From a virus: 21,912 nt of DNA. Under the pieces are notes generated by a model. It was not told the origin of the DNA and made no database searches. It was given only the letters and a program-made list of their open reading frames with translations. The DNA is taken from positions 1 to 21,912 of the IMG/VR virus record IMGVR_UViG_3300044858_005737. One strand, given 5' to 3'. The position numbers and the translations under genes were made by a program. Each line of letters opens with the position of its first letter. The stretch's first letter is position 1. Positions 1,012-21,100 of the stretch are shown one piece after another.

Positions 1012-4000
1012 AAGGCTGACGACCCATACGCAATGGACCCAATGTATGGTCCAGCGACGACAATGGTGAAGCCGAAGCCAGAGCCAGATGCAATGGCGAT
1101 GCAGAAAATGATGGAAACGCAGTTGAGCGAAATGCTCGGCATGAAGGTGTCCGTCGTTGAGTTTGATGAGCAAAACGTCACATACGCAAAGCCAGATGCC
1201 GATGGCGGAATGCAGAAGTACAAGTGCCCATACATGCGCGATGGTGGGCGATTTATGTTTGGCGCTCCAAAGCCGGTAATTATTGCTCCAGCGGCCGGTG
1301 TTCCAGTTATGCCGAATATGCCAATGCCGGCAAACGAGCCACAGCGAGTTATGCGCCCAACGCAGATGCCGGGAATTCCAGTGGCCATTAAGCCAGGTAC
1401 GTCTGGAATGGTCATGGTTCCGCTTCCTCCAGTTCAGTACGAGAACCAACCAGCACAGGGTCCAGTTGACAAGAACAACCTTGACAAAGAAGAGGCCGAC
1501 CTACGCGATGCTCTTCTAAAGATCGTTAAGCGCCATGGCAGGTTCAATGAAGATTCGTCTGGTGTATGGGCTGGTTACAAGCCGGCAGCAGAGAACTACG
1601 TCGCAAAGATTGGCGTGAAGTGCGCAAACTGCGTCTTCTACGAGGGCGGCAGCACGTGCAAGATCATCGCAATCCCAGTTGAGCCAGAGGGCAAGTGCAG
1701 ATTTGCCGTCATCCCTAAGGGCGTCGTGGTTGCCGACCCAATGGCAAAAAAGCAGTACGACATGGAGAGTGGCGCCGACGAGCAGGATTACGTAGAGGAA
1801 CTTGAAGAGAAGTACCCCGGTGAACTCGCTGTTGCCGCTGTTCGCGGAGCACTGAAGCGCCGAAGGGGCAAGAACAGCAAGTACAAGATGCTGAGCGAGT
1901 ATGGATCGTCCGACGACAAGGGTGACATGCCATATGTCATTCCAGTGACGCCGAACGAGGCATTTGCCGTAAAGCAGGCACTTGACCCGATCTTTGACTA
2001 CTACCGCGCAGAGACATTCGTTGACATTGATGGAATCATCATCAAGTCAGGCGCATCGTTTGACATGATTGAAGCAGTTGACAACGCGCTTCAGAATGTA
2101 AAAAAAAAAGCGCTAAGTAAGCCGGAGGAAAAGTCACTCGGCTACCGAATCGGCAGGGCCGTCGGCAGTCGCCTCGCAGATCGCCCATCAATTGGCAGGG
2201 GTGGTAAGGGGCGCCGACGTGGGCTTGATGTTGATCTGCCAACCGGAGGGAATCCGGGTTCGCGCAAGCCAACGGGTAGCAACTTTGACCCAGACAATGA
2301 CGGGTGGGTTGACGAAGGAACGACAAGACCGCGATTCGTTGGCGCAAGAACACCTCAGCCAAATGCAGCAGCAGCAAGAACGGTGGCTCCGCAACAAGAA
2401 AGACGATCAGTTGCTGACCGCCTAGCGAGTTCGCGCGACCTAAATCGCCACGGCCTGCCAAATGAAAATCCAGACATGTTGGATCCGCGTGAGGCGGAAA
2501 AGCGCCGTGAGTTTGATGGAATTTCAAACAACTGGCTCAAGTCAGGTAGCGGCTGGAAATCAAAGCCACGCAAGGAAGGCGACAGGACAAGCAGCCCTGA
2601 TTTACTACGCGGACGCGAACTCGGCGAAAACCAAGCGCGACTTTCTTGGAATGGCTCACGCACCGGAAATCTGCGGAGACCCAGAGGGTTTGACGAGCAG
2701 GATAGGTCATCCGATGATTACTTTGACTGGTATTACGGCCATGTCAACAGGATGGGTTCCTTCCTGTCCGCCCTCAACAGAATGGATCCGGCAACCGCAA
2801 AGCGCCGGATATCTCCAGACGAAAAGCGCGGTATTGAGGAATCAATAATTGACAGCGTTGCGTCCAAGGTTCCCGATCTATCCGGCAATAGACAGGAAGA
2901 CGAACGCCTCAAGATGTGGCTTGAGATGAACGGCTTTGATGGCCGTCTCTCATCTGGTCAGCGCAATAAAGAACCAAAGAAATTCACCGAGCGCGCAGTT
3001 GTGCCATTTGATCCATACGGCGATGACTTTGACCCAGATAACCCATACGGGGATGAGAATGAGCCATTCCAGTTCGGCGGAAGATCAGGCGAAGACTTCT
3101 ATGACATGGTCATTGAAGAATTCCTTGGTCCCGAGGCACCACGCGATCGCATGTCGTCAGGACGCCGTCAAGACGATGAACGGGCAACAGATGAGGAACT
3201 CCTTCGTGATTATGAAGAGCAGGTCAGGCTTGGTAAGGCTGGTCCGCCAACCGATGAAGAGCTTGAGCAGGAATATCAGCAGTGGGTCAATAAGTTCCTT
3301 GATGAACGAGAGTTAGATGAGCCGATTCGCCCATCTGATAAAGAACTCATGGCCGAATATGAGCGCATGATCGAAGAGGGTGAATTGCGCCCACCGACTG
3401 ACGAGGAACTTGAAGCAGAGTACCAAGACAGACTACGTCGCGGCGAAATTGACGAATCGGGCGAAGATGCAAGAAATGATATTGGCCGCCTATCGTCCGG
3501 CTATCGCTCCTACCTCGCCCAGCCAGAGGAGCGTCGGACTCCAAGGCAGGTACAGAAATACGATGGCTATGTTGCCGCATCGCTTTCATCGGGTAAGCGC
3601 AAGCCATCAGCACCAGCAAATGCTGATGAGCAAGGCGAATTGATTCTAAAGGGATCGCCGAAACTACAGGAAATTTACGATCGTTTTTCGGAGGAAGTAA
3701 TTGCTGCGCTTGAAGCAGCGATGCAGGATCCGACTGGTGTGAAGTGGGAAATTCCATGGCGCACAACGAGCGCACCACGTAACCCGGTCACTGAAAAGCC
3801 ATATACCGGAATTCGCTATAACTTGGTCTTGCTGAACGCGGTCAAGATGAGCCGTGGATACGATACCTCCAAGTGGGCCGGTGCCGCACAGTGGAGGCGC
3901 CGCAACCAGATGCTTCGTGGTGACCGTAGTGCTGTTGTGGAAATTGATGAGGAGCGTGGCGTTGACATTCTTGTTCCACAGGTAGTTGATGGCCGCAAGA

Positions 4001-7000
4001 CAGGCAACTATTACGTGCGACGCGTCTACAACGTCGCAGACGTAAAGGGCCTACCTGAGAGCGAATACAAGAAGGAAGAACCAATTAACCCAGATCAAGC
4101 CGCAAAGGAACTTGATCAGGCAATCAACAATGAGATTCGGCCAAAGATCAAAACCGGCTCGGATGATGGCGCATTCTATAGGCCAAGTGAAGATGTCATT
4201 TACATGCCCGACTTTGAGTCGTTTGTGAGTGCAGAGAGATATTACTCAACCCTCCTGCACGAAACGACTCACTGGACTGGGCACCCAACAAGAAACGACA
4301 GACCGCAGAGAAATCTCTTTGGCACACCAGAGTATGCCTATGAGGAACTCATTGCTGAAATCGGAGCATCGCAGGCGCTGTCGCTATTCGGACTGACACT
4401 TGGCCCACGCGAAGACCACGTTCAATACCTGAAGAGTTGGGTTAGCTTGCTCCGCGAAGACAAGGACGCACTCCGTAGGGCAGTGGATGAGGCGCAAGAA
4501 GCAGTTGACGCGATGCTTGAGAAGTCGCCGACAATGCGCCGCTTCTACGGCGTCCAAGAGTCAGAAGTCACGGCAAGACGCGAGGGATTTAGGCGCCGCA
4601 AAATCGGCGTTGAACTCCCAATGGCCGAAGGCATGGAGGGGAGCGAAAGGATCAAGGGCGGCAAGAAAGCCGGCAAGATGCCGACTAGCGGTCCAGTTTC
4701 TGGATACCCGACAGAGATGCTGTCTAGTGGTCGTCGTCTCAGTGCAGGACAGCGAGACTCTCTCCCGACACATGCAAGTGGACTCTCTCGGGAAGAACGC
4801 GATATCTACGAGCCATTTGGCGCTTCGCAGAGGGGTAGAGATGGCCGAGTCATGGACCTCGGTGGACGTCTCTCAAGTGGCGCTAAGCGCGGCCCAATAA
4901 AGGACAGAAACGGCAAGGGAGAGATTGAACGTACACCGGATGATGTCTCGGTGCGTGAAATATTTGATTTTTCCTTTGATCCGACCGACCAGCAGCGCGA
5001 CATTCTTGACACGCTTCTCGCAGTTGTGTTTGGCAAAACTGGAAAGAAGACGGGTGTCGTATCAGTATCTGCAGGCGCCGGAACCGGAAAGACAACAACA
5101 CTCAAGACAGTAATGAAGGGGATTGACAGGCTATTTGATTTTGGAATATTTGATCGACTGAAGGGCGATGCCAAAGACAAGGCAATAGCAGATAAAAAAG
5201 ACTATCTTGACAAGTTTTATCCGGAGATGATCAAGAAGGCAATCAAAGATGCCAAGATTTCCGGAAAGACCAAACTCGCCAATCTCAGCGACGATGAATT
5301 TTCAACAGTCATAAAGTCGCTCCAAAGCGAAGCAAAGAAACTCAAGGGCTTTTACATCGTGTTCGGCAAGAAGAACGAAGAGGACGCCGATGTTGAGTTC
5401 CCGGAGAACACTGCCGCCTCCACGCTTCAAAAACTTGCGTGGTGGGGTCTTAGGAGGGGCATCGGCGACGAACTATACGGTCGCGGAATGCGCAAGAAAA
5501 TTGCGCTCGGCATGCTCAAGAAGCGCAAGCACCCAAAGTCAAAGGCTGGTCCAAAAAAAGTCACCTTTGTAGACGCACAGGGTAATGAAGTTGAGTTTGA
5601 CGGAATGAATCCAGGTTGGAGAGAACTTGGGTACAAGATGGTTACCAACGGAATCAGCGTTGATAAATATCTTGATCTAGAGAAGCGTGCAGAAGAAATC
5701 GCAACAAGACTTCGCGCAGGAGAACAAATACCGGATGCAGAGAACCCATTTGCACAGACAGTAAATGGACAGCGTTATCTCTTGACCAACTCTCAGTTGG
5801 GGTCAGTTCTGTTTCGCGCACTCAGCAACTTCCTGCTGAGCGGCGACGATGAGCCCTCGGCTAAGCACTTCATGAATACAAAAGTGCAGGAAGAACAACT
5901 TCAGTACAAAATCAACAATGGAATTACTGTTGCCGCCGATGATATCTCGTACCCCGAAATCAGCCAACTTGCTGTTGATGCGATCAAAAAACTCTGGGAC
6001 GACATGCGCGATGATAATAGTTCGCTACTCCCACACCAAGGCGCTGTTGAGAAACTATGGGCACTAACACGCCCGTCGCTCAAGTCAAGCCCCGGCATGA
6101 TTCAGCATGCAAGCAAGGAGCAGGTGCGTGTTCCGCAAGCATCAGGGCTCCTAAAGCGCGCAGAAGAAGAAGCAAAGAGAATATTCAATGGAAAAATTGA
6201 CGATTTCAAGATTGCAGAAGCGATGGCCTCGCTCGTAATTGAGCCAGGTGACCTTGATGGAAAGAAAGCCAAAGATTTCACTGGATATGTGGTAATCAGC
6301 GCAAATCGTTCGCCAAATGGTCAGTGGACAATGACCGTTGCCAAGCCATATGGAGCAGACCCAAAGGACCCCGCAGCGCTAACAATGATTGACGAAGCCC
6401 AAGACATGAACGAAGTCATGCTCAGGGTGCTGCAGGATAATGCCGATGAGGTCCCTCTCGTTATGGTGGGAGACCCGCGACAAGCAATCATGGCTTGGCG
6501 TGGAGCAATGGACGTGTTGTCTGCCACGGATGCAGATTACGGATTGGCGCTTACTGAGTCATTCCGCTACGGGCCACTGATTGCTCACATGGCAAACATA
6601 ATTCTGGCGCAAGGGAACTTGGATGACCTTGATACCAAGGGCGAACGCACATTTGCACACGTTGTCGGTAGGGCCGATGACCTCATTAAAAAACTATTTA
6701 CATTTGAGGGAATTGGTGGAGAAGACAAGCTCCAAGAGCGTGTGTCGCATATTCAACACGTATTCCAGACTGAACTTGCGGAACTTGCGGCTGCCCGTCC
6801 AGAACTTGGCATCAAGAAAGATTCCGATGGTCTCTACAAGTTAACTGAATTGCGGAGTAGGGACAAAACTGCATTTGAGAATGCCGCAAGAGAATTCCGC
6901 GACATGCTTACTACTAGGGCACAGGGAACATTCATCGGCCCGGACGATGATGTTGATGCAATTCTTACAGCAACGAATGCTGGGATTATTGACGCTGCTA

Positions 7001-10000
7001 TTCAGTTTGCGCTCAGCCCTGCGGGTCAACGTTCTCGTGTTGGTGGAAAGCCAACGGCTGTTGTCATTCCGGCAAGTAGATGGAAAGAAATGGTTGATCT
7101 ACTTCGTCATGTTCAGTACGTTCAGCAGCAAGACAAATCAAAGTGGACAAAGCCAGAGCCATCATCGCTAATCGGAGATGAGTGGGAGTGGGACAAGATT
7201 AAAGGCATGACAAATTCGTCTCAGCATGGACCACTGCGTGCACTATTGAATCTCGTAACAAAGCCAATTGCCGGCGAAGATAAACCATTCAGCGCAAGCA
7301 CATGGCTAAAAATGTTCCAAGAAACAAGGACAGACACACCACTTGAAGGTGCGCCACTTCCAATTCAATTCATAAAGTCAAGAAAAGAACTGCGACTTAC
7401 TGATCTGGTTGATCACCCAGAAAGGAACGGCGACAATCTCGCTGGTGCAGACTTGGCAAAAATTGCCGCACGAACAGGAAAAGGCCAAGGCCAAGGAACG
7501 GGAGATCAGTCAAAGAGTCGCGAGGCGCGCTACAACATAATCCCAGATCCATTGAGCGCTGATACTAAACGAGTTTATTACACACTTGACTTCTCGGAAG
7601 ACGACGCATGGAACGGCCGTGTGTTCATAAGTGGAGGTGGCGCTGCAGGCGCCAAGCAGGATAAACAACGTAATACACAAGGCGGTGTCGGCCAATATCA
7701 CGATGATATTCAACGTGCAGTTCAAAAACTCATTGATGACGGCGTAATAACAGCCAGCGAAGCACGCTTCATGCCAGAAATATCCAAAATCAAGACCAGG
7801 GACGGTGAGTCACGCGCTGAAGACGCATTCGTCATTCAGGGATCTGGACGCACCGAAGCAGAACGCAATGACAGGACAGCCTTCATCGTGTCGCGTATTG
7901 GGACGATGGTTAGACAGAGCGCCTCCGGACAAGTTGGCGACATGGAGATCATGACGGCAACTACCGCCAAGGGCAAAGAGTGGGATCGCGTGAGGCTATG
8001 GAAAGACTTCACGCCACCGCAAAAGCCTTTTAAGTGGGATACGGCGTCACCGGAAGAACGCGAAAGACAGGTCGCCAAGACACTTGACTTCTTGACTCCT
8101 CTTGCTGATGGGCGGATGAAGAAGAAGGCAATTTCCCAGATATATGGGATTCCAATGAAGGATCTGGATCGGTACAGTAGGCAGGGAGCACAGGGAAGGG
8201 CCGCCCTGCGGGATCTTCTTAAGCCGCTTGTTGAAGAAAGACTCAAGACGACAAATGCAATAGAGGGCGTTGATTACAGGGAGAAACTCAATCTCCACTA
8301 TGTAGCCATAACGCGCGCCAAGAGAGCTCTTGACATGGGCGCTGCTATGTACAAGATTTACCTTCAGGATGCCAATGAAGTACGTAAGTACGAAAAATCA
8401 ATTGAGGAAGGTCTCGGCGAGGTTGACGAAAACGGAAACCCACGCATTCTTCCTGGCGCAAAGAAACCATCGTATTGGAATCTTCCAAAATCATATGCGG
8501 ATAGGGCGGACGATGATCCGATCTTTGATCCAGATGCTGACGGCGGTGAGCCAATCGGTGATCTACCAACAGTAGATGAGACTCCAGAACAACCAAAGAA
8601 AGGTCGTGGTCGGCCAAAGGCTGAAGAGGATGAAGACATTGTTGGCGGTCCACAATTTGATGACGACGAGGACGAAGATAGTGGGCCAAGTGACAACATT
8701 GATCTTGATAGCGAAGATGATGATGGTGACGAAGCATCGCAAGCATTGTCTTCTGGAAGAAGAGCAGTAGGCGGCGCATCTCCGCGCCCAAGTGCAACTG
8801 GTAGAACTCGTGTCGGCGAACCGGAGCGCACGCTTTCATCCGGTGTCGGCCCACGACTAAGGGAAAGAGGCGAGGCAGCCGGAAGGCCAGCGGCCATGGG
8901 TGGCCGCAGCGGGAGAATGATCAACCGCCTATCCAGCGGGAATCGCAATCTCCAAGTTCCCTCTTACCTATCCGGCCTAGGTGATGAAATTGACGACGAA
9001 GACGTAGCAAGGGCAGCGAATGTATGGAGGGGAATCAGGAATACTGGAATTCCACTGACCATGACAGGTGCGGAGTCCGGCGCAGAGCGGCAACAGAAAT
9101 TTGACCGCGCAATGAAGTCGGTTGGGAGCCAAGTCAAGCAAGGCGGACAAGTCACAGTTGGTGATGTCAGCAAAAACGATCCAGAAGACGCCGCATCCAA
9201 TACCTGGATGCTCCCAGTGTCGCGCCTAATGGAAACACTACGAGTTCCGCTCAACTTTGATGTAGAGCGAGACGAATCTGGTGCGATAGTTAGCACACGG
9301 GCTACGCAGACGCGCTCAATAAACGCAGACGAACTGGCGACGATGCTTGGTCTTCCTCCGCAGGAAGCACAAAAACTCAGGGATCCGCAGGCCGGAATAT
9401 CACACGACGACGTACGGCGTCTGGTTGCCGCTATAGCAAATAGCGACGACTTCCCGGCTTGGCAATACTTCGGTTCGGTCAGTTTCCGTACTGCTGGCCG
9501 TGACGCTGTTGCCCAAAGAGGCGTGATAGGCGAGAACATGAATCGCCGTCTCATGAGAGACAGATTCATTATTGAAACTTTCGGAGAGGACGCCTATCCT
9601 CACTGGTACGACAGAGACGAAGGTCAGTACATCAGCCCAGAAGAGTATGCCGACCTCGGCGAGGTGAGCCCATCTGCCAAGTTCCGTGCGTTTGGTTCAT
9701 TTGAGCGCTCTGCCGGCGAACCCACACGGACCCCGTTCTCCGGTGCGGAGGTGGAAATTATGACCAGAGATTATATTGATGCCATGCGCGGAGACGAAGG
9801 CAGGCCAACGCCGATAACGGTCAGCAAAGCTGAAGGAGCGGAAATCAGGAGCAGTTACCCACTAGACAGCCTCCTTGACCATCTCGGCATTGCCCGCGAC
9901 GAGAATTGGACAGAAGAACTGCGCAAACGGATGCAGGCTGCATTTGATACCGACAAAGTTGGCCTATCCGGAACGAACCCAACAGAGCGTAGGGATTGGC

Positions 10001-10452
10001 AACGCAGAGGAATCCCGACGAGCGTGGTGAGGGAGATGATCCGCACGGGGATGATTGACAGTGCCGCAACAGTCTGGGGCGATGAGGGTCTTGACTCACA
10101 AATTCGCAGGACTACGAACAACGTCTACGAAGCCCTCATTGACTTCATCAACAAGAATGCTCCAACTGGCAAGGCACCGACGACAAGGCTCAAGGACGAG
10201 ATTGCGGGAGCCTCAAACCTCGCAGTGACCCTGCCGCGTGCTGCCAGCAGGAAGAACCGTACGTATTCGGCCAACAACCCCAATGAGAACCTGGTTTCCC
10301 AAGACGCAATGCAGGCAATGGTTGACAGGCTGAACGAGAAACTCGGCACGAATTTCACTATTGACGATGTATTCAGTGACGAGCAACTCCGCGCAGCCGA
10401 CGAACGACTCCGTGGTGGCGTTACGTCATGGAGCAAAGGAAAACAAACCTAG
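484..10452 (+). CDS. Giant polyprotein 1: prohead protease - ArdC - SF1 helicase fusion (polyvalent protein)
   Basis: One continuous frame of 3322 codons. The start is ATG 484: an in-frame TAA at 463-465 excludes anything earlier, and the protease fold begins within the first 30 residues. The ribosome site is weak (AGAAAG, 467-472). Order of parts: HK97-type prohead protease (about 1-176); Pro/Met-rich linker; four-cysteine domain (about 350-410); basic linker with an EF-hand-like loop (602-611); acidic linkers with TDEEL repeats (902-990); ArdC antirestriction/zincin (about 1050-1390, HETTH 1259-1263); UvrD-type SF1 helicase (about 1490-2660); AT-hook and acidic tract (about 2705-2753); unknown C-terminal domain (about 2830-3322). 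Nine LSSGxR-like motifs punctuate the linkers. Typical prohead proteases are only a few hundred residues, so this is an extreme fusion. Likely role: head maturation plus an injected counter-defence cargo, by analogy with polyvalent proteins and P1 Dar proteins. A run of ten A's at 2100-2109 could produce a short form of about 545 residues. Confidence 0.9.
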   Translation: MSFDSFEYKTTSEYAESVKAGAINLDEAQGIVECFVAGIGNKDSVGDIVSSGAFTKSLMRRKPRVVWGHNWNDPIGKVLEIYEVGPNDRRLPLKMKMAGIGGLFARVQFNLQSEKGREAFANVAFFGEEQEWSIGYKTLRAQYDQKSQANIIHELELYEVSPVLHGANQLTGTISVKADDPYAMDPMYGPATTMVKPKPEPDAMAMQKMMETQLSEMLGMKVSVVEFDEQNVTYAKPDADGGMQKYKCPYMRDGGRFMFGAPKPVIIAPAAGVPVMPNMPMPANEPQRVMRPTQMPGIPVAIKPGTSGMVMVPLPPVQYENQPAQGPVDKNNLDKEEADLRDALLKIVKRHGRFNEDSSGVWAGYKPAAENYVAKIGVKCANCVFYEGGSTCKIIAIPVEPEGKCRFAVIPKGVVVADPMAKKQYDMESGADEQDYVEELEEKYPGELAVAAVRGALKRRRGKNSKYKMLSEYGSSDDKGDMPYVIPVTPNEAFAVKQALDPIFDYYRAETFVDIDGIIIKSGASFDMIEAVDNALQNVKKKALSKPEEKSLGYRIGRAVGSRLADRPSIGRGGKGRRRGLDVDLPTGGNPGSRKPTGSNFDPDNDGWVDEGTTRPRFVGARTPQPNAAAARTVAPQQERRSVADRLASSRDLNRHGLPNENPDMLDPREAEKRREFDGISNNWLKSGSGWKSKPRKEGDRTSSPDLLRGRELGENQARLSWNGSRTGNLRRPRGFDEQDRSSDDYFDWYYGHVNRMGSFLSALNRMDPATAKRRISPDEKRGIEESIIDSVASKVPDLSGNRQEDERLKMWLEMNGFDGRLSSGQRNKEPKKFTERAVVPFDPYGDDFDPDNPYGDENEPFQFGGRSGEDFYDMVIEEFLGPEAPRDRMSSGRRQDDERATDEELLRDYEEQVRLGKAGPPTDEELEQEYQQWVNKFLDERELDEPIRPSDKELMAEYERMIEEGELRPPTDEELEAEYQDRLRRGEIDESGEDARNDIGRLSSGYRSYLAQPEERRTPRQVQKYDGYVAASLSSGKRKPSAPANADEQGELILKGSPKLQEIYDRFSEEVIAALEAAMQDPTGVKWEIPWRTTSAPRNPVTEKPYTGIRYNLVLLNAVKMSRGYDTSKWAGAAQWRRRNQMLRGDRSAVVEIDEERGVDILVPQVVDGRKTGNYYVRRVYNVADVKGLPESEYKKEEPINPDQAAKELDQAINNEIRPKIKTGSDDGAFYRPSEDVIYMPDFESFVSAERYYSTLLHETTHWTGHPTRNDRPQRNLFGTPEYAYEELIAEIGASQALSLFGLTLGPREDHVQYLKSWVSLLREDKDALRRAVDEAQEAVDAMLEKSPTMRRFYGVQESEVTARREGFRRRKIGVELPMAEGMEGSERIKGGKKAGKMPTSGPVSGYPTEMLSSGRRLSAGQRDSLPTHASGLSREERDIYEPFGASQRGRDGRVMDLGGRLSSGAKRGPIKDRNGKGEIERTPDDVSVREIFDFSFDPTDQQRDILDTLLAVVFGKTGKKTGVVSVSAGAGTGKTTTLKTVMKGIDRLFDFGIFDRLKGDAKDKAIADKKDYLDKFYPEMIKKAIKDAKISGKTKLANLSDDEFSTVIKSLQSEAKKLKGFYIVFGKKNEEDADVEFPENTAASTLQKLAWWGLRRGIGDELYGRGMRKKIALGMLKKRKHPKSKAGPKKVTFVDAQGNEVEFDGMNPGWRELGYKMVTNGISVDKYLDLEKRAEEIATRLRAGEQIPDAENPFAQTVNGQRYLLTNSQLGSVLFRALSNFLLSGDDEPSAKHFMNTKVQEEQLQYKINNGITVAADDISYPEISQLAVDAIKKLWDDMRDDNSSLLPHQGAVEKLWALTRPSLKSSPGMIQHASKEQVRVPQASGLLKRAEEEAKRIFNGKIDDFKIAEAMASLVIEPGDLDGKKAKDFTGYVVISANRSPNGQWTMTVAKPYGADPKDPAALTMIDEAQDMNEVMLRVLQDNADEVPLVMVGDPRQAIMAWRGAMDVLSATDADYGLALTESFRYGPLIAHMANIILAQGNLDDLDTKGERTFAHVVGRADDLIKKLFTFEGIGGEDKLQERVSHIQHVFQTELAELAAARPELGIKKDSDGLYKLTELRSRDKTAFENAAREFRDMLTTRAQGTFIGPDDDVDAILTATNAGIIDAAIQFALSPAGQRSRVGGKPTAVVIPASRWKEMVDLLRHVQYVQQQDKSKWTKPEPSSLIGDEWEWDKIKGMTNSSQHGPLRALLNLVTKPIAGEDKPFSASTWLKMFQETRTDTPLEGAPLPIQFIKSRKELRLTDLVDHPERNGDNLAGADLAKIAARTGKGQGQGTGDQSKSREARYNIIPDPLSADTKRVYYTLDFSEDDAWNGRVFISGGGAAGAKQDKQRNTQGGVGQYHDDIQRAVQKLIDDGVITASEARFMPEISKIKTRDGESRAEDAFVIQGSGRTEAERNDRTAFIVSRIGTMVRQSASGQVGDMEIMTATTAKGKEWDRVRLWKDFTPPQKPFKWDTASPEERERQVAKTLDFLTPLADGRMKKKAISQIYGIPMKDLDRYSRQGAQGRAALRDLLKPLVEERLKTTNAIEGVDYREKLNLHYVAITRAKRALDMGAAMYKIYLQDANEVRKYEKSIEEGLGEVDENGNPRILPGAKKPSYWNLPKSYADRADDDPIFDPDADGGEPIGDLPTVDETPEQPKKGRGRPKAEEDEDIVGGPQFDDDEDEDSGPSDNIDLDSEDDDGDEASQALSSGRRAVGGASPRPSATGRTRVGEPERTLSSGVGPRLRERGEAAGRPAAMGGRSGRMINRLSSGNRNLQVPSYLSGLGDEIDDEDVARAANVWRGIRNTGIPLTMTGAESGAERQQKFDRAMKSVGSQVKQGGQVTVGDVSKNDPEDAASNTWMLPVSRLMETLRVPLNFDVERDESGAIVSTRATQTRSINADELATMLGLPPQEAQKLRDPQAGISHDDVRRLVAAIANSDDFPAWQYFGSVSFRTAGRDAVAQRGVIGENMNRRLMRDRFIIETFGEDAYPHWYDRDEGQYISPEEYADLGEVSPSAKFRAFGSFERSAGEPTRTPFSGAEVEIMTRDYIDAMRGDEGRPTPITVSKAEGAEIRSSYPLDSLLDHLGIARDENWTEELRKRMQAAFDTDKVGLSGTNPTERRDWQRRGIPTSVVREMIRTGMIDSAATVWGDEGLDSQIRRTTNNVYEALIDFINKNAPTGKAPTTRLKDEIAGASNLAVTLPRAASRKNRTYSANNPNENLVSQDAMQAMVDRLNEKLGTNFTIDDVFSDEQLRAADERLRGGVTSWSKGKQT
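1531..1713 (+). other. Four-cysteine domain following the protease
   Basis: Residues about 350-410 hold C380-x2-C383-x8-C392-x12-C405, in a context resembling small Fe-S (HiPIP-like) or zinc modules that I associate with actinophage head proteases. A helical lead-in with KIVKRHGRF and WAGYKPAAENYV precedes it. The metal is unknown. The module sits before the A-run at 2100, so a slippage product would still contain it. Confidence 0.5.
2100..2129 (+). promoter_or_regulatory. Ten-A slippery run with immediate stops in both other frames, followed by GGAGGA
   Basis: Bases 2100-2109 are ten consecutive A's, read in the main frame as the end of a Val codon plus AAA AAA AAA. In the +1 frame TAA lies at 2114-2116; in the -1 frame TAA lies at 2118-2120. 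Ribosomal or polymerase slippage would therefore end the protein at about residue 542-545, releasing the protease and cysteine domain without the ArdC-helicase part. GGAGGA (2124-2129) follows directly, but no usable start codon stands at the right distance after it. The run is visible; programmed slippage is inference. Confidence 0.4.
3187..3453 (+). repeat. TDEEL acidic helical repeats in polyprotein 1
   Basis: Residues 902-990 contain four related units beginning TDEELLRDYEE, TDEELEQEYQQ, SDKELMAEYER and TDEELEAEYQD, spaced by about 20-30 residues and each ending in a short Gly/Pro turn. They lie between the LSSG motifs at residues 890 and 1003. The unit looks like a charged helical hairpin, perhaps a spacer or a scaffold-binding element. 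The DNA copies have diverged. Confidence 0.75.
3631..4653 (+). other. ArdC-type antirestriction domain (ssDNA-binding plus zincin metallopeptidase)
   Basis: Residues about 1050-1390 follow the ArdC layout. The N-terminal half has the DUF1738-like signature (IYDRFSEEVIAALE, a Trp-rich WEIPWR segment, GIRYNLVLLN and a W-G-A-A-Q-W run). The C-terminal half is a zincin with FYRPSEDVIYMPD, then HETTHWTGH giving H1259-E1260-x-x-H1263, and YEELIAEIGA with E1288 or E1292 as the probable third zinc ligand. A helical tail (HVQYLKSWVSLL) closes it, as in the family. ArdC proteins protect incoming DNA from restriction during transfer, and many occur inside polyvalent phage proteins. The catalytic residues appear intact. 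LSSGxR motifs flank the domain at 1034 and 1413, so cutting there would release a unit of about 380 residues. Confidence 0.88.
4951..8463 (+). other. SF1A (UvrD/Rep-like) DNA helicase domain with large insertions
   Basis: Residues about 1490-2660 contain the full motif set: Q motif PTDQQ (near Q1503), Walker A GAGTGKTT (K1536), motif II DEAQD (1970-1974), motif III GDPRQAIMAWRGA (from G1996), motif IV SFRYG (R2028), motif V TTAKGKEWD (about 2493-2501) and motif VI HYVAITRAKRAL (R2611). All catalytic residues are present, so an active 3'-5' ATP-dependent translocase is expected. About 434 residues separate motifs I and II, roughly twice the UvrD spacing, and IV-V is also expanded, so there are big inserted subdomains. 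No nuclease motif is visible. Possible jobs: unwinding or repair of injected DNA, or an antirestriction motor like the helicase part of P1 DarB. Confidence 0.9.
8596..8742 (+). other. AT-hook plus acidic linker after the helicase
   Basis: KKGRGRPK contains an AT-hook core (R-G-R-P at residues 2708-2711), a minor-groove binding element for AT-rich DNA. A long Asp/Glu tract follows, up to the LSSG motif at residue 2755. Being attached to the helicase side of that motif, the hook would stay with the helicase after cleavage and could tether it to packaged DNA. The motif is short, so its function is inferred. Confidence 0.5.
8971..10449 (+). other. Unknown C-terminal domain of polyprotein 1
   Basis: Residues about 2830-3322 are not recognised. 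The segment is globular-looking, with mixed charge, few prolines, no cysteine and no membrane helix. Notable stretches are a likely helix-turn-helix-like segment around INADELATMLGL, aromatic-rich AYPHWYD and FPAWQYFG, and a second DNA-binding-like stretch IPTSVVREMIRTG. It follows the last LSSGxR motif (residue 2816), so cleavage there would free it as a protein of about 500 residues. It might be a DNA-binding partner of the helicase, but nothing in the sequence proves it. Confidence 0.35.
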
Positions 10453-10528: not shown

Positions 10529-10562
10529 AGTTGTCTGAAATATGACACAAGGTCGCAAAAGC

Positions 10563-10567
10563 AGGAG
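10563..10567 (+). promoter_or_regulatory. Ribosome binding site deciding the start of gene 3
   Basis: AGGAG ends four bases before ATG 10572. The in-frame ATG at 10542 has only A/T-rich sequence upstream and no Shine-Dalgarno, so 10572 is the preferred start. Confidence 0.65.
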
Positions 10568-10571
10568 CGTT

Positions 10572-12140
10572 ATGGCATACAACGAGAAAGCAACTGTCAG
10601 CATTGACGCAGAGGGTGAAGTCCTCAAGTGCGCCAAGGGTGCTGCTCCTGGTGAGTGCGGGTACGTCAAGGGTGCGCCAATTTGCGCCAAGTGCGGTGCG
10701 ACACCAGTCGAAATGAAGATGGTTCCAGTTGCCGAGGACGAGATGATGGACGACGAAGAGATGATGGACGACGAGGAGATGACCGAAGAGGAGATGGCCG
10801 CGAAGAAGACGAAGCGCATGGCCAAGCGCTCCTCCAAGGGCATGGGCATGAAGCCTCCAATGGCCGATGGCGAGATGATGGATGACGAAGAAGAGATGTC
10901 CGACGATGAGGACATGATGGACGATGAGGACGTAATGACTCCCGTCAAGTCCAAGAAGATGATGAAGAAGAAGTCCAAGGGAATGAAGAAGCGCAAGGCC
11001 ATGGGCGGAGCCATGATGTCCGATGACGAAGAGGACATGGACGAAGAGGAGATGGAAGACACCGAGGAAGCCATGGATGAGGCCGAAGAGGCCATGGATG
11101 ACATGGAAGAAATGGTGGATGACGAACTTGAGGAGATGGAAGACGAAGAGGATGAAGAGGACGAAGAAGATGCCGAAATGGGCACGAAGTCCTTCTCTGC
11201 CAAGGATCCATACTGGAACGAGGTGCGCAGTGCGCGCATTCGCTCCATGGGGATGAAGGCTTCCGACCTCGGTTCACTCGGCTATGTCTGCGCGCTTGAG
11301 CGCAAGGCTTACCCCGGTTCTGCTCCTGTCTGTGCTGACTGCCCCGGTGGCTGTGTTGCAGAGAAGGGCATGCCAGGCATTCTCCATGCTGAGGGTCTCG
11401 CTGAGAAGATGTTCAACGGCACGGTCGTTGACTCTGGCTACTCGCCGGATGCCGACATGTTCGTGGTTGATGTTCAGACCAAGGATGGGCGTGTCAATGA
11501 AGTATTCATTGACGGAACAAACGCCCAGATGATGGGTTTCCACCGTCTGGATCGCTCCGCCTACGACGTCAAGTCGGCATATGATGGCTACAAGTTGATT
11601 GACTTCACTCAGGCTGCGGAGATTGCAGTCAAGTCAATTGACGGCAGCGTCATCGCGGTTGAGCCGGACGTGTTTGAGGGCTTTGATGCCTACGCGGTTG
11701 AGATTGAGGGCTTTGACGGCAAGTCGTACGACGTGTTCGTCGGTCTTGACGGCGAAGTACTCGGCTATGACCGCTACGAACTTGACGAGGCCGAGGAGAT
11801 TGAGGCTGAGGCTGCAGAACTTGCCCTCAAGCGTGCGTTCTCTGAGGATCGCCGCATGGAACTGGCGAAGGAGGGCATGGCCCTTCCGGACGGTTCGTAC
11901 CCAATCGTCAACGAGTCGGATCTACGCAATGCAATTCAGGCATTCGGACGCGCCAAGGACAAGGAAGCGGCCAAGAAGCACATCATGAAGAGAGCGCGAG
12001 CCCTCAAACTTGAGAGCCTCATTCCAGCCAACTGGATGGCCGGTGCCGATGAGAAGATCGCGTCAGTGACAGATGATGCCGAGTTCATGGCTGCAATCGC
12101 TGAGTTCCAACTGCTTGAAGACCAGATCGACGAAAACTAG
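10572..12140 (+). CDS. Acidic Met/Lys-rich head-associated protein with cysteine clusters, PepSY-like and DUF6582-like parts
   Basis: A protein of 522 residues from ATG 10572 (the longer ATG 10542 lacks a ribosome site). Four parts are visible. (i) A cysteine cluster, C20-x8-C29-x8-C38-x2-C41. (ii) Residues about 51-205, made almost entirely of Asp, Glu, Met and Lys, with repeated MMDDEEM units and basic KKSKGMKKRK patches. (iii) A second cysteine cluster (C240, C254, C257, C261), echoing GAPICAKC with SAPVCADC, then a PepSY-like alpha/beta segment (about 340-403). (iv) A tail of about 425-488 (LPDGSYPI, DLRNAIQAFGRAK, KHIMKRARALKL) resembling the DUF6582 module. The position between the protease fusion and the next giant gene, and the scaffold-like charge, suggest a scaffolding or internal head protein; a Zn-binding role for the cysteines is possible. 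It lacks any LSSGxR motif. TAG 12138-12140 overlaps the ribosome site of the next gene, so translation is probably coupled. Confidence 0.85.
   Translation: MAYNEKATVSIDAEGEVLKCAKGAAPGECGYVKGAPICAKCGATPVEMKMVPVAEDEMMDDEEMMDDEEMTEEEMAAKKTKRMAKRSSKGMGMKPPMADGEMMDDEEEMSDDEDMMDDEDVMTPVKSKKMMKKKSKGMKKRKAMGGAMMSDDEEDMDEEEMEDTEEAMDEAEEAMDDMEEMVDDELEEMEDEEDEEDEEDAEMGTKSFSAKDPYWNEVRSARIRSMGMKASDLGSLGYVCALERKAYPGSAPVCADCPGGCVAEKGMPGILHAEGLAEKMFNGTVVDSGYSPDADMFVVDVQTKDGRVNEVFIDGTNAQMMGFHRLDRSAYDVKSAYDGYKLIDFTQAAEIAVKSIDGSVIAVEPDVFEGFDAYAVEIEGFDGKSYDVFVGLDGEVLGYDRYELDEAEEIEAEAAELALKRAFSEDRRMELAKEGMALPDGSYPIVNESDLRNAIQAFGRAKDKEAAKKHIMKRARALKLESLIPANWMAGADEKIASVTDDAEFMAAIAEFQLLEDQIDEN
10740..10938 (+). repeat. 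Short acidic MMDDEE repeats in gene 3
   Basis: GATGATGGACGACGA-type units recur at least four times (about 10741, 10759, 10876, 10915), coding for MMDDEE or MMDDED. The DNA is nearly identical between the first two copies, so recent expansion by slippage is likely. Confidence 0.7.
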
Positions 12141-12143
12141 GAG
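12139..12143 (+). promoter_or_regulatory. Ribosome binding site of polyprotein 2, overlapping the gene 3 stop
   Basis: AGGAG shares its first two bases with the TAG stop of gene 3 and lies six bases before ATG 12150. This is a strong site with ideal spacing and fixes the start of the second giant gene. It also implies co-transcription and translational coupling. Confidence 0.85.
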
Positions 12144-12149
12144 TGCCCT

Positions 12150-15100
12150 ATGGCCGACAGAGGGCGTAGGGTAGAGAGGCACATACTCTCTAAGCGCCTT
12201 ATTGTTGACGACTATCTCGCGGTCAACCACAACGACCGTGCGGTGGCATTCAAGCAGGCAATCAACGCATCGCTGAGTACATCGGCGCTCAATCCCGATG
12301 TCGCAACAAAGGCGGCGATGGGAATGGGTGGGCCAAACAGCGACGATACGGACAACAGGAAGCGCGAATTTTCCGCAGATGCACGTCCAGGAGTTGAGAC
12401 CAACGAACGCGGCTGGCGCTGGGAGACGGCGAAATCGCGTGAGCCCGGCGACCAACTATTTCTGTTCCCCTCTTACAGAAGCAGAAAGTCACTTAGCACT
12501 GAGCCAAACTTTGGCTGGTTGCCAAATGAGCCGGAGGATTATTCCTCATTTGAGGAAATGCTTGAGCGCGTTAGGAACAAGCCATCCGTAAAGATCACCA
12601 AGTATCCGGTAAACCCCAAGACCGATGACATAAACCGTGATGCAGGGGTTGACATTGATCCATTTTCGATCATGTCCGGCATGTCGTATGAGGAGCGCAA
12701 AAAGCGCAGAGAAGAAAAAAAAAGCAATAAAAACGAAATAAAAACAAAGAATCTTGGCAGGTCATTAAAGGACCGCATCCCCGGCGGAACGCTCGTTGCG
12801 CGCGCCGCCGCGATGGCCGGTGTTGTCATTGATGAACGCAATAAATTCCGGTGCCCACCCGGCACCCCTGCCGCAAACCAGTTCACCGATCGCACTGGTA
12901 GCAACTGCTTTGGCTTCAGCCCGTCGCGTTTTGGACGTTTTGCTGCCCAAATGGCGCGAGAGGTCTACCCAGAGGGCGCTGACCCGAGTGGTCTACGTGG
13001 TGGGGTTCGTGGCCTATTTGACTTCCTTTATACCGGCAGAGGTTCGTACAGCGCACCAGAAGATTTTGGCCGTACTCCGTATTTTGATCCAGTTACCGGT
13101 GAGCCAAATGCTCCCATGGATTGGAGAACCGCAGATCCACCACAAGGAAAGCGATGGATCAAGAACGGTTTTGCAAATGCGCAAGACAAGGTTGCTGCGA
13201 ATAAGGCCCAAGTACTGAGCCTTCAGCAGAGACTTGGAGTTGACACCAGCGACGAAGCACGCCGGACAAATGCCGACCTTGAAGAGACGATAGAAAAATT
13301 ACGTCAATCTGGTGAGTGGGATGTCCAACTCCAGTCACTGACAGGCACTGGCGGCAAGAGAATGACCGAGCGCCAGGTTGAAGACTTTGTACGCGCGCGT
13401 CTTGAGTCAACGCCAGGGTGGCTCAATCTATCCAAGCAGGAGCAGGACATACTCGTCCAAGCCGACAAGGTTCGGTACTACCAGACCGAGCGAGGCGTAA
13501 TCGAAGGAATTCTAACCCAGTACGCGGAAAATCCAGAACTTGTACGCAACGTTGGAATTATCTCACTTCAGCCGATGCCAAGAAGGGGGATGGTTGACGA
13601 GGCAAGTACCGCTTTCTATGGCTCAGGTAGCAACTTGCGTGCCATCGTAAACATCAACATTGAAGAGATAATGAGCAACCAAGAGGCAATGTTGCCGAAC
13701 ATGGGGCCAAACGAGCGACTGGCAATCGCGGCAGTTGGAACACGCACCGATGCGGAGGCCAGTAAGGCAGTTGCTGATTTCTTGGTGTCATCCGACGTTG
13801 CTGCTCGCGCAATGGCCGGAATGATTGATGGCGCATACTCGTTCGCGGCGCATATTGGGCATCATGAAATTGGGCACGTACTTCAGGGCGCAGTGTTCAT
13901 GGAGAACATCAGGGAAAGTCTTGCTGCCAAGGGGTACATAGAAGTTCCTCTCTTCAAGCGAGATGGTTCTCCGGATCTTGATTCAGCAGGAATTCAAAAA
14001 GTTGCGCGAGTTACGTCAATGGACCAACTTACTGGCGGTCAATTGATTCAACTCATGCAAGGAATGTCAAAGGAAATACATCCTGCTGATGTTGACGATG
14101 TAATGCGGCGCGCGTCCGTTGTATCGCTTCTTGCTGGAAACTATCCAGACCAATATAAAGCAGATGGAAACGATCCAGTCTGGCTGCTTGAACTTAGCGC
14201 CGAACTACACGCACTACGTTCACAGGGTTTGTTTACCGGAGAAGACCTTGATGCAGTGAACAAGTTTCTTGAATGGCAGGACGGACCGGCAGATCAGGCA
14301 GTCCAGAGACGGCGCGCAGAGTTTGACGCCGCAGAGGCCGCACGTGAAGAAGCGGAGTCGTTCACACCCGACGAACCGACAGAGGTAGATATTGATCCAG
14401 CATCCGTGACGCCAGCGGAACTTGAGGAGATATACAAAGACCGGCTTAGCGACTATAGGGACGCAACCGCCGCTCGCCTGATGCAGGCCGAGGAGATGAT
14501 TGAGCAACTAGACGAACGACAGACGATCAGTTTCGGCTCCGAGATGGAAGTGGGGATGCTTGAAGTTGACGAAGAAGTCAATGCGATAACCGAGAGAATC
14601 CGGAGCATTGTTGGTGACAAACTCGCTGAGGATGGCTCCATCAAGATGGATGAACTTAGCGAAGAGTTGCAAAAAGAAATCATGCAACTTCAGTTCCAGC
14701 GACAAATCAAGGCCCTTGATCGCTCGCTCTACGACAAGGTTGCTGGAAGAACGCGCGATTCTTGGCAGAAGAGATACTCGGGCGTCGGCAAGAGCCGTGG
14801 TGCCCGCCAGCGATGGGACATCCTCATGGAAGATGAGTTGCTGCGTGCTGGATGGGACAGGAAGACGAAGAAGCGACTCCAGACCCCTGATGCTGACTCT
14901 CCTGATGCCGACGTGCCGGAAAATACCGTAGATCTCCAGTCGGTAAACGACAGTGTCCGTGAGTCGCTAAAGAAGGCTACGCCAGATCAGATTAAGAAAA
15001 AGATCATCAATAAGTACAAAGAACGCGCGCTGATAAAGGATAAGACCTCGGACGACTATCTCATTGCGACAGAAGAACTGGATGCAATGAGCAATGAGTA

Positions 15101-18100
15101 TTTGTTGAAGTTACGTGCATCAGGCGATAAGCGGCGCACCGACACAATCCGTAAGGAACTCGTCCAAGAGGTTGAGGCATCTGTTCGTCCAAAGAAGAAG
15201 GACCTCAAGAAGTTCAAATCGCGCGACGACATCAAGGAAAGCGCGAAGAAGGAACGGGCCACGCACCGCCGCAAACTGACCAAGGAACAAAGGGATGCAG
15301 TATCGGAACTTGGGACATTTGAAGATGCCGAGATTCTCAGGATGCTTGACCCCCGCGAGCAGGTAGCAGCCGGACGTGCGATAAACAGGAACAACGCAAG
15401 GCTCAAGCGCCTTGGTATGAAGGCTGATCCAAAGTCAAAGGATGAGGGCTCGCTTGAAGAGCAGGTTGAAAACATCCTCATCCCAGCCATGGAGGCTATT
15501 GATAAAACAAGCGTTGACCAGCCGTTTGAAATGGAGACAGTGATGGAGATTGACCCATCACTCGTTTCTGGGCGCGCAATAGGCACAGAGCTTGAGATGA
15601 ACGGATTCACCATTGGCACTCAGATGGTCAATGGCAAGAGCCAAATTGACGTTCCAAAGACCGGACCGGGCGGACAAAAAGCACGTCGCGTCGTGGTTAC
15701 CGTCAAGGCCGGTGACCGTGGCATGTTCACCAGTAGGCAGAAGGGAGACGATAGGGATATCTTCACAATGCCCCCCGGCCGCATGCGGATCATCGGCCGC
15801 GATCCAGATGGAACGGTCAGAGTTGAATTTGTTCACCAGTCGGATACACAGGAAGTTGTTGGAAAACTCGCAGTCACAATAGGTGATGGAACCGACGACG
15901 CAATTTGGAGAAAAGGCCAGCAGAAAAAACTCCAGAAGATATTTGACCGTTACGTCGTGTCCTCTGGGGATAGAGGCGACTCACGTGTCGGTCCACGCGA
16001 CAGTGGTGATAGCGAGATCCGCGATACGAGCACTGCAGTAGTTGATTCAGTAGCGGAAATGGGTGGCTCATTTGCCGAGCCAATTGACGATCTTGATGGA
16101 ACAGATTCTCCTGAGGCTGGTCGTCTCTCGTCTGGCGCGCGTCAAGCAGGCCCAACAAGCCCAATCACCCGCGAGGCACAGGAGGCAAAGCGCGCACGTC
16201 TCGCTGATGCCGTCCAGACACGTCGTCTGCAAACAACTGAACGAAGGAAACAGGAACTAGATACTGCAGACAAGCGCGTCACCGAGATGCGTGCAGCAAT
16301 TGAACATTATGACAGAACAGGTGAATGGCGTGGAGGCGAGTATGGAATCAGCCGCACCATCCATAATGAAGATGACCGTTTGGACACTGCATTAGATCTT
16401 GACGACAAAACTGACCAGACAAATTGGACCAGAGAGGAACTTGAGTCATTCTTCCGCGAAGACTTTATACAGAGTAATCCTGGCGCAACTGAAGAGCAAA
16501 TCCGTGAACGAGTGTCCGCCAGGATGTCTTCATTTAGGGATTCGCTCTCACGGAAACTTGATCTATATGAGAAAGAAGCACGACTAAAGAAACACAACCT
16601 TGAGGCAGAAGCACAAAGGCGCAGTCAGAATACGATAGATATTGAGGATCTTCCCGATGAAGTTGTTGACATGCTTGCGGCAGAGAGTGCGCATATAGGT
16701 AGTCTTGCAAAAGAAAAGCAAGATCAGTTATTTTCAACTGGTGATCCATCTACAAAAGCGGTAGTACATAGCGGCGCGGCCGAACTTGCTGGAGGGGTAA
16801 TCGATCCAAGTAGGTCGGTTGGGACAGAAAGTGGAGGTGGCGATGCAATAATGTCCGACACAGCCCAAATTAACAGAAATCAGGCCGCGTATGCACGTGA
16901 ACAACTGCGCAAGACTAAAACACGAATCTCAGGAATGGGAGATATTCGTGCATGGCTTGAATCGGATGATGATGAAATTGTTTTCACTTCAATGGATGAG
17001 TTGGAAAATGTACCATTAACAATTAATGGCACAAATATACGTGGAGTCATGCAGGACTCCGGTCGTGTTGTTCTGAGGAAATCAGAACTTTCAAAATCCG
17101 AACGTCGTTCAATTGAAGATTTTGTTAGTGAAGCGGAAGAAGCTGAACTGCTTAAAACAATAACCAAACTAGAGAAAGCAGCGGAGATTCTTGAGCGAAA
17201 CGACAATCAATATATGTCTGTTCATTCACGAATCAGCCCTGAGGGGATTGGATTTGCGAAATCGCCGGGTTATTACGGTAGGCATGCATACAAAGTTGTT
17301 CCCAGTGATGTAGCCGAGTATCCATTACTTGGAGAAATGGAAAGAGGTACGAATCCAGTAATCAAAGACGAACTCATGGAAAGGCGCTGGAAAACACAAG
17401 CAGCGCGCGGCGCGACGCACCTTGTTATTGGCAAAACTGACGAAGATATTGTAGACATTATGGAAGCGTCTGATGAGCGTCAAATACTCTCACGCCTTGC
17501 TCCGGTCATTGGTATTTCTACGCCGGTTCCCGCATCAATTGCCTACAACCCAAACGCAGGCAGTTCTGGAATGGGACCAAGTAAAACTCAAGAAATGGGA
17601 CTTCTTACTCAAAAAACAGGACCAGCAATCATTGCCCGCGCCCTGAAGCAACTCAAGCGCGACGGTCGCGTTGACATGGATACGGTTCTCTCCGATCCGA
17701 CGCTGGCACCGGATGACATGCCATCAGCATCACTTAGTTCTGGACGGCGCGGTGAAGGACCTACTGCTGGTAGTGGAGTATCCCGTGCTCTCGGCATGGC
17801 TGCTGGCGGAACAATCAGAAGCCGTGCGACGGGGAAGGTAGTAGACAAGATCTTGGAAAGGACCGGCGCTGACGAAGATACAAAAGCCAATGTAAAAGTC
17901 GGTCTTGGATTGATTTCCGCCTTTGGTGCCGGTGGTCCTGCTGGTGCGGCGACGTACGTTGCTGTTGAAGCCGCAAGAAGAGGCGGCAGGGATCTTGCTG
18001 AATTCGTGGTTGACGAACTCGTAGAGCGCGGCAGAATGACCCCCGAGCAAGCCGGTAGAGCCATGGACGCCGTTGACAGGATTGCTCCTAATGGCCTTCC

Positions 18101-21100
18101 GGATGGAGCCAAGAGAAAACTTGGGCAGGCATTCACCGAAGCAGCAGACCTACTGGAGCGGGTAAATACACCAGAGAACAGGGCAAGACTCGCAGAAATG
18201 AGCGACGATGCCATTGATTCAGTTGTTGAGAAAGCGAGAAGCGCCAAGGAGGGCGTCCGCGAAATAACCGATACCACGGTTGAGAGCCTGCGCGATCTTG
18301 GTAGTTCGGCGCGGGAACTCGGTGGCTCTGCAAGGGAGAAACTGCGTGGGGTGCGCACGCGAGTCATGGGGCCGGGTGCAGCCAGAGTTGACGGATCCGG
18401 GCCCAAACTGTCTTCCGGATCGCGTATTGCAGAACTCCCAACGCCAAGGGAAATCGCATCACGCCGAGAAGTTGTACGTAGCAGAGCGGTCGCTGCTGAT
18501 AAAGAACGCGGAGAAGCAGTTGACAGGGCTACCAAGACCGTTGATGGGCTCAAGAAGGCGCTTGACGAGTTTGAGAGAACCGGGGAGTGGAGGGGTGGTG
18601 ACTATGGTGTAGGGACATTACCCGATACGGTTCCGGAAAATACTTCCCTAGAAGAAGCGTCCGCCAAGGCGAGTAATCGGTCCATGCAGGAACTCATGCA
18701 GATCCTGAAAACTGCACCACCGCAAAATGCGACGCCAGAGCAAATAAAAGAGGCGGAAGAAAAGACAAAACAAGCACTTCGGGCGCGCGTTGAAAAAACA
18801 ATCAGCCTTTGGGAGAAGGACAAGCGCGTGCGTCAGCACAACCTTGAGTCTTCCCGTCTACGCCGCGAACAGGGAACAATTGACATTGAAGACATACCGG
18901 ATGATGTTCGTGCTGAACTCATCGCCGAGGGCGGCGCACTCCTTGATGCTGCATATCAGGATCGGTCAGTACTGGATCCAATATTCTCCACTGGCAGTGA
19001 TTCTTCGCGCGTGGTTATCCATCAAGGACCAGACACGCTCAAGGACGGAGTTATTTCACCAAACGTAAATTTTGGTTCAACAGAGTCGGGATCGCTAGGT
19101 GGAAATACCGCAGCAGTAAATGCAATTGGCGCGCAACGTTTCTACGAGCGCCATGAACGCCGTGTAAGGCAAAGGCGCAATCTTGGAGATATCCGCCGGT
19201 TGCTTGATGGGGAAGTTGACAGAATTGAGATTGACGACCAATCAATCCGCGCAGACCTTGAGGGGCTGATACCTGGATATAGCAGTGCCAATACCAGCCT
19301 CACCAGAGACCAGATCAATGGCCTTACGCCGGCTCAACGCAATTCGCTTCTCAATCAGTATGCAAGCAAAGAGAAACTTGACCGACTAGACACAGATATT
19401 TCAAAGTCGCAAAAAACATATGATGTGTTGAAGAGCAACGATGGACAGCATCAGTCGGCATATTCGGACCCAGTGAGCGGTGTTGCCGGTGGCTATTACG
19501 GTCGTTACGCCCAAACAACGACAATTCCGAAAGACGTTGCCGATATCGCCCCAGAATGGGAAGGCGGCGTACGAGGAGAGAAAACCAAGATAAACGACCC
19601 AGATGCCTATAAGCGCTGGCAAAGCGCCATGCGCGGCGGTCACTTTGTTGTCGTTGGCGAGCGCGGCAGTGAAATAACGCAAGACTGGGGTCCAAGTGAC
19701 GAGGCTCAAATCATCGCTCCTAAAAAACCGATTATTGGAATTTCTGGACAATTAAACCCAGGCAAAGGACAGATCAGCGGCACCAGCAGTGATGGACAGA
19801 AAATATCTATGGCTATTGCCGCACGCGCAATGGAGCAATACAGACGAGATGGCCGTGTAGACCCAGAGACTGTTCTTGCAGATCGCTCGCTAGTTCCGGA
19901 ACTTGCCAGTATTGACATCACAGGTCGCTCCGAGCGCGCCATTGAAGAACTCCGCGCCGCAGAGAAATCCGCCCATAATCCGTGGATAACGACAAAAGAT
20001 CTGATCAGCATCTCCACGAAACAGGAGAAGCCCAACACAAAGCCGGACGAACTAGTCCTCGGCCAAGAAACTCGGTCTCAGCGCAAGAAAGAGCGCATGG
20101 CGATTGTCGGCAAGGCGATATATGAACTCAAGCAGATAATTGGTGGGGCGACATCTAAGGAATTCCCTGGCGTCACCCGTGCTGACATAGACCCAAAGAT
20201 CGTGCGCCTATTGATGAAGGAGCCGCTAGAGGTTCTCAATGCACGACTTGAAAAGGCCGCAATGAGGATGCACATGGGCTTTGACCGGCGTGTGCGCGTG
20301 CGAATGACAGAAGATGACCTAATGAACTTTGGCAAGACCGGCTCAGTTCGGGCAGGTGGGACAAACAGTAGTTCGCAGCCATCACGACGACTTGAGCGCC
20401 TCATGCGGATGGACCCCGAATATCGTGAATCACGCTCGGCAAGGTCAATGGCCGGAAACAAGATTGCCCCCGTTTCTGGGACTGACAGCGCTGTATCACA
20501 GGGCCTGAAAATGGCGCAAATGATCCTTGAGTCTGGCAAAACTCTGTCAAACATGTCCGATGAACAGATACAGGATACGTTCAGCGGCGAAGTCTCTAGA
20601 AAAGATAACAATAGAAACGATAGAGAATCAGACCCAGTCTACCTAACCAAGAATCGTGCAATTGCGGTTGCGATACTTGCACTTGGCGAGAAGGTTGAAC
20701 TTCAGCCAAGTTCGACAACCGGAAAAATCATCCCTCAGCAGTTGGTGAGCGAGGCAACATCTGGCGCACTGCTACTCGTGTCCAAGGATTCTGATGAATG
20801 GCGCGACTTTGCTGAAAAAATCGGCTTGCCAAGTGACGAGCGCGCCACAAATGAAGAAATGGACGATGCGCTAACCAACTTCATTGAAACCTACAACATC
20901 AACTTCTGCTCAATGCCACAAGCCAGCGGGAATATCCTGTGCATCAGTGGAGTTGAGGTTGACAGAAATGAAATGCCACAACTCGTCGGTAATCCAATTG
21001 ACGGTAAGAGCGTTGCTGGAAGAATGTTCATTGACGGCATGCTTGACGGAACATGGAAGTCCAAGTTCGCAGACGAACTGGCAGAGTCGCGCGAGAAACT

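Follow-up and report, generated by a model that had tools for sequence, protein, structure and literature searches.

What is the role of a short peptide motif that recurs between the domains of giant phage proteins? The question is raised by a 21,912-nucleotide stretch of viral DNA (IMG/VR record IMGVR_UViG_3300044858_005737, positions 1 to 21,912), here called the window, in which two giant proteins carry repeated copies of the tetrapeptide [LM]SSG. Giant 1 (P0001) comprises 3322 residues; the open reading frame of giant 2 (P0002) extends past the window end and spans 3857 codons in an identical 32.7 kb IMG/VR contig. A first-pass annotation, made from the sequence alone, had read LSSGxR as the cleavage signal of a polyprotein system processed by the prohead protease that begins giant 1. 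Following the motif through a family of related phages, we find that LSSG is almost certainly a real, selected linear signal between the modules of several giants. We further infer, with a probability of about 0.68, that the signal is cut by a phage-encoded protease, a reading that draws on sequence comparison.

Motif copies in the window

Our count reproduced the 12 [LM]SSG copies reported at first, nine in giant 1 and three in giant 2; they and the window domains and modules located below lie on the plus strand. Two residues after the Gly (+2), ten copies have Arg, one has Lys and one has neither, and Arg precedes six of the 12. All 12-base spellings are distinct. Chance expectation is indeed well under one copy: residue shuffles of both giants gave a mean of 0.25 and a maximum of 3 in 2000 trials. 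For [LM]SSG with [RK] at +2, the 11 observed copies compare with a shuffle mean of 0.04 and a maximum of 2.

The copies lie between domains, as the first reading had it, and Pfam domain positions and an alignment of the duplicated giant 2 module agree on this. Giant 1 is headed by a prohead protease domain, Peptidase_S78 (574–1005, residues 31–174), detected by Pfam (E 7e-11; 42.9 bits against a curated cut-off of 21) and as a PHROG head maturation protease (E 1e-26). Motif 1 (GRLSSGQR, 2947–2958, residue 822) stands directly past a predicted helix ending at residue 815, with predicted local distance difference test (pLDDT) values below 50 around it. Motif 2 (DRMSSGRR, 3151–3162, residue 890) and motif 3 (GRLSSGYR, 3490–3501, residue 1003) follow, and motif 4 (ASLSSGKR, 3583–3594, residue 1034) is immediately 5' of the ArdcN domain identified by Pfam (3670–3924, residues 1063–1147). 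The interval between the MPTase-PolyVal zincin (4126–4485, residues 1215–1334; Pfam E 2e-34) and a UvrD/SF1-type helicase region (4969–8337, approximately residues 1496–2618; Pfam and PHROG) contains motif 5 (EMLSSGRR, 4720–4731, residue 1413) and, directly ahead of the helicase, motif 6 (GRLSSGAK, 4870–4881, residue 1463). Motif 7 (QALSSGRR, 8746–8757, residue 2755) lies in the linker following the helicase, motif 8 (RTLSSGVG, 8833–8844, residue 2784) is the copy whose +2 residue is not basic, and motif 9 (NRLSSGNR, 8929–8940, residue 2816) precedes the C-terminal part of giant 1. In giant 2, module copy A (16125–17714) opens at motif 10 (GRLSSGAR, 16125–16136, residue 1326) and is directly followed by motif 11 (ASLSSGRR, 17733–17744, residue 1862), and module copy B (18408–19901) opens at motif 12 (PKLSSGSR, 18408–18419, residue 2087). 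The two modules are 32% identical over about 540 alignment columns, and the alignment of both starts at LSSG itself.

Recurrence across the phage family

Relatives were collected with a profile of P0003, a Cys/acidic protein encoded in the window (10542–12140) that is 62–71% conserved. The profile matched 78 loci, 38 of them non-redundant, and none in the bacterial and archaeal genomes searched; IMG/VR relatives are 38–41% identical over the ArdC/MPTase region. LSSG is present again in most of these loci. In 54 giants from LSSG-class lineages, which include closely related phages so that the copies are not all independent, 336 instances of LSSG were counted over 161,080 residues, compared with 2–7 for each non-overlapping permutation (SLSG, LSGS, GSSL, LGSS, SSLG and others). 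The counts of GLSS and SGLS exceed those of other permutations because these strings overlap genuine GLSSG and SGLSSG sites. Few changes are tolerated (LASG 27, FSSG 20, MSSG 11). In nearly all LSSG-class lineages, the highest rank in an unbiased k-mer scan, which was not seeded with the motif, went to LSSG or to a pattern overlapping it. S78 relatives number at least 544 among the stretches matched; S78 loci fetched later served as a hold-out. Of these, 11 were independent of the first set and seven of the 11 covered over 1400 giant residues; in six of the seven, LSSG ranked at or near the top among 4-mers. In homologues the motif again stands at domain boundaries, an outcome that favours the earlier reading.

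Could repeats of this kind have arisen by chance, from biased composition or by recent DNA duplication of one segment? Only a slight surplus of codons shared between copies (0.305 vs 0.226) points that way. Duplication was rejected as the source because flank identity, at 7.2%, is what unrelated sequences would give (7.1% expected); the shuffles, permutation controls and hold-out loci also count against this explanation. We consider this explanation refuted and give it virtually no credence.

Lineage variants of the motif

Copies of one genome largely agree in their variant, and lineages differ in it. SLSSG characterizes L052, L055, L085 and L094; in the GLSSG lineage L068, Gly precedes the tetrapeptide (position -1) in 14 of 14 copies. 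FSSG is found in L043/G036 and, mixed with the Leu form, in L059/L084, which are separate by overall similarity. Further lineages show G[MLF]RS, including GMRS and GLRS (L075, L076, L078, L098), G[FL]SS (L077, L096), GL[RS]S (L097), G[FL]AS (L100) and GLAS (L099, 11 copies), and L072/L074 show just a weak G[FM]xS pattern. The family core is thus a hydrophobic residue (L/M/F), then usually S, A or R, then an invariant Ser, with Gly directly before or after. The Arg at +2 that the first-pass annotation had included in the signal was rejected as a component, being limited to the window lineage and a few others. Flagellin contains an RLSSGLR segment; this likeness was set aside because the motif sits in linkers and becomes FSSG or GMRS elsewhere.

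Mutual information between lineage and the -1 residue amounts to 1.12 bits, against a maximum of 0.75 in 2000 shuffles, and the result is similar when reduced to one lineage per close clade; common descent adds to this uniformity and is not fully removed by the shuffles. Agreement within a genome, unrelated flanks and mildly shared codons together form the pattern expected from one trans-acting reader per phage.

Position in the polypeptides

In the surroundings of 264 copies, homologue coverage was lower (rank 0.33) than around other SS/SG sites of the same proteins (0.47), and disorder tendency was higher (0.70 vs 0.51); these copies are not independent, and p-values are not to be taken literally. 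For cassettes common to different giants, motif density is 6.5 per 1000 residues in the flanks and 1.3 inside. The giant 2 module provides the clearest example: a cassette related to copy B recurs in the third giant of contig G004 (residues 2846–3336), bordered by motifs, where it starts on one copy and ends 16 residues short of the next.

A second recurrent element is a basic tag module (2119–2373) with DPDNDGWVDEGTTRPRFVG, which in several lineages, among them that of the window, follows S78 in giant 1. A related module forms the extreme N-terminus of the relatives' third giants (L192, L018), with the common pattern PS[IL]G...RRRG...PTGG.PG.R.PTGS..DPDNDGW.DEG; the module ends in DPDNDGW.DEG. 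We regard it as a candidate capsid-targeting sequence. In all eight third giants where the pattern located the tag, the first motif lies 32–61 residues past its DxDxDG; the corresponding gap in the window is 220 residues.

Across the fully examined records, the motif is concentrated in three giants and the tape-measure protein, and other isolated hits occur at about the chance rate, some in short, doubtful open reading frames. In the tape measure, the R/K and F lineages have a copy at about residue 45, and most have one at about residue 590. A number of these copies match the variant of their lineage, such as FASG in the FSSG lineage and SLASG in an SLSSG lineage; an exception is G004, whose giants have KLSSG, yet whose tape measure has KRFSSG near residue 49. 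P0003 has no copy in the phages checked, and the major capsid protein (MCP) carries none. The MCP (e.g. P0005; L006 13501–14928) has a conserved KD[VI][YF][ST], placed roughly where HK97 is processed; in Gordonia phage Hanem it reads KDVFSSG. KDV[YF][ST] is possibly, and only possibly, an MCP cut site near the HK97-equivalent position.

Cleavage or binding

Cleavage appears to be the best reading of the signal because S78 stands in the same chain, the tag lies ahead of the first site and modules lie between sites. The flanks are consistent with it. Among 347 of them, the -1 residue is mostly R, K, S or G, with Asp or Glu found twice against 57 expected. Pro is absent at +1 (16 expected), occurs once at -1 (16 expected), is nearly absent at +2, and is enriched at -2 and +3. 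These preferences look like those of protease subsites along a groove.

The LSSG-type core would then act as the punctuation signal of a polyprotein system consisting of three giants and the tape measure, placed in disordered linkers. A phage protease would read it in an extended groove, from about residue -3 to +2, and cut there, freeing the tag or protease part from the cargo and the cargo modules from one another, presumably before or during injection. The bond cut would be the one after the invariant Ser, a placement chosen because hydrophobic-x-Ser recalls the A-x-E sites of SPN3US gp245 and the sites of T4 gp21. As the leading cutter we envisage the S78 prohead protease that heads giant 1, which may act on core or injected proteins as T4 gp21 and SPN3US gp245 do.

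Several observations weigh against cleavage or against this enzyme. Linear binding motifs, if conserved, can likewise exclude Pro and acidic residues. The tape-measure protein, which carries copies, is normally assembled outside the head, and the MCP, without a copy, shows no co-variation with motif changes (MCPs are 72–90% identical to that of contig G005). S78 is 74–91% identical to that of the window across lineages with different motifs. In 29 sequences its residue 97 followed the -1 class without exception, yet as specificity determinant it was refuted by the hold-out, where L227 has Ile and L272 has Val, both with Arg at -1. Finally, the correlation of motif distance with S78, zincin or P0003 distance varies in sign and strength with the lineage set.

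The same tape-measure copies fit an alternative in which the motif is bound and not cut, serving as a recurrent signal for docking or packing, either to load cargo or to hold unfolded linkers for ejection; its reader would be a capsid protein, a scaffold or a chaperone. Disordered linkers with short repeated motifs are, moreover, typical docking sites. Against binding, the copies border shared cassettes and punctuate modules, where a single copy per protein might have been enough; the obvious partners, MCP and P0003, stay conserved while the motif changes, and the separate tag module already resembles a targeting signal. We judge binding without cleavage to be improbable. Cutting by a host protease once the proteins are injected, with the variants reflecting different hosts, is very unlikely in our estimation: the variants are lineage-specific and all motif proteins could enter the cell, but the phages encode conserved peptidases of their own, and we know of no host protease with such a site.

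Candidate proteases

S78 is our leading guess for the enzyme, and we put cleavage by it at a little short of even odds. It was found in nearly every lineage whose relevant DNA was covered, and its H69 and S133, which we take to be the catalytic His and Ser, are invariant in 22 aligned sequences. An AlphaFold model of S78 with its linkers, mostly of low confidence, had no significant match in the PDB. The original placement of a prohead protease at the start of giant 1 is borne out, with His and Ser invariant; the assignment of the sites to it is weakened by the motif-free MCP, the motif-bearing tape measure, the failure of residue 97 and an equally universal competitor in giant 2.

This competitor is the N-terminal zincin-like domain of giant 2 (12834–14384), whose HExxH lies at 13863–13877 (approximate start), with invariant Glu residues downstream; no Pfam family was assigned to it. 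All full-length giant 2 proteins examined have HExxH near residues 530–650, those of lineages without MPTase in giant 1 among them, and H344, E345, H348, E453 and E457 are invariant in 23 aligned sequences. With about 31–42% identity to the window's domain, its divergence is more motif-like, and over 27 lineages it gave the strongest partial correlation with motif distance (0.47), which was not seen within the LSSG class and may stem from one deep split. Acting in the head or after injection, in line with the general proposal of Iyer et al. 2017 on polyvalent proteins, the zincin would account for sites in proteins that possibly enter the cell, the tape measure included. Its predicted structure (AlphaFold) had no significant match in the PDB; we consider it a possible but unlikely cutter. 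The MPTase domains of the giants might play the same part, but the giant 1 MPTase is unlikely as a general reader because it was undetected in several motif-bearing lineages.

As a separate observation, giant 2 contains a Cys module, RCPPGTPAANQFTD..G.NCFG (window about 12850–12930). Relatives have a similar module, RCPEGYQ.GGRFTD....TCG, in a protein of its own encoded downstream (G005 38136–40202).

Comparison with known systems

The chain of giant 1 combines S78, ArdcN, MPTase-PolyVal and a UvrD helicase, and the relatives' third giants add an RNase_T exonuclease and GNAT. Giant multidomain phage chains with ArdC-N, MPTase, helicase and, as in the relatives here, exonuclease and GNAT belong to the polyvalent proteins, which phages and conjugative elements encode. 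Iyer et al. 2017 (PMC5512222) proposed that built-in peptidases (MPTases, and assemblin-like ones where present) process these proteins, with the assemblin-like peptidase always C-terminal. By contrast, S78 is N-terminal here (residues 31–174 of 3322), and one motif is common to three giants and the tape measure, whereas the portion of that paper covered here describes no common processing motif. We therefore regard the present system as a variant polyvalent system, since the reported C-terminal rule sums up the cases known so far and is no defining property of the class. That the giants lie in the head gene block is no more than a hint that they may reside in the virion and be delivered into the host.

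Among head proteases, T4 gp21 cuts at a short motif with a free middle position. It trims core and internal proteins (PMC9958956) and shares with the present system a protease in the head operon, an N-terminal targeting segment before the cut and injected cargo. Here, in contrast, the site is hydrophobic-x-Ser(-Gly) without Glu, each chain has many sites, the protease is fused to cargo and the MCP lacks the motif. In SPN3US, gp245 processes nine proteins by cutting behind a short motif of the A-x-E type, some propeptides at several sites (PMC10052503). One short motif in several proteins of one phage is thus common to this phiKZ-type system and to the giants and tape measure described here; the differences there are the A-x-E motif, separate substrate genes and the lack of module-by-module punctuation.

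The protease region of the Gordonia Bendigovirus phages Hanem, DalanDe and GMA6 is 40–43% identical, and these phages share the C-terminal domain and a related MCP. They differ in having protease and C-terminal domain in one open reading frame, and no repeated motif was seen in DalanDe. Among the cultured phages seen, the nearest relatives have Gordonia and Brevibacterium as hosts, and an actinobacterial host may be guessed for the window's family. The shared domain is the C-terminal domain of P0003 (FGRAKDKEAAKKHI), fused behind S78 in Gordonia phages (L007 8623–13524) and separated from it by the polyvalent insertion in the window's family. In the cultured Microbacterium phages Cece and Big4 (L195 10290–17126, L196 10278–17149), the capsid maturation protease (or its homologue) has 5–6 copies of a different recurrent motif, TAS[AVS], and the capsid protein has two towards its N-terminus, with other TASA permutations nearly absent; the motif is possibly an analogous cut site.

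Implications

We found no description of the LSSG motif in the open-access collection searched, in which most subscription journals are missing. The wider picture, which we advance tentatively and hold to be possible if on balance doubtful, would be an undescribed polyprotein economy of tailed phages: three precursors of about 2,000–4,500 residues, with some 15–30 signal copies, would be cut by a fused prohead protease into separately acting injected proteins, and signal and reader would have shifted specificity together several times. The general proposal that polyvalent proteins are cut becomes a specific prediction that names hundreds of sites across many genomes. If it is true, dozens of unknown effector modules would have their boundaries defined in one step, and the lineage-specific motif changes would constitute a natural experiment on protease specificity.

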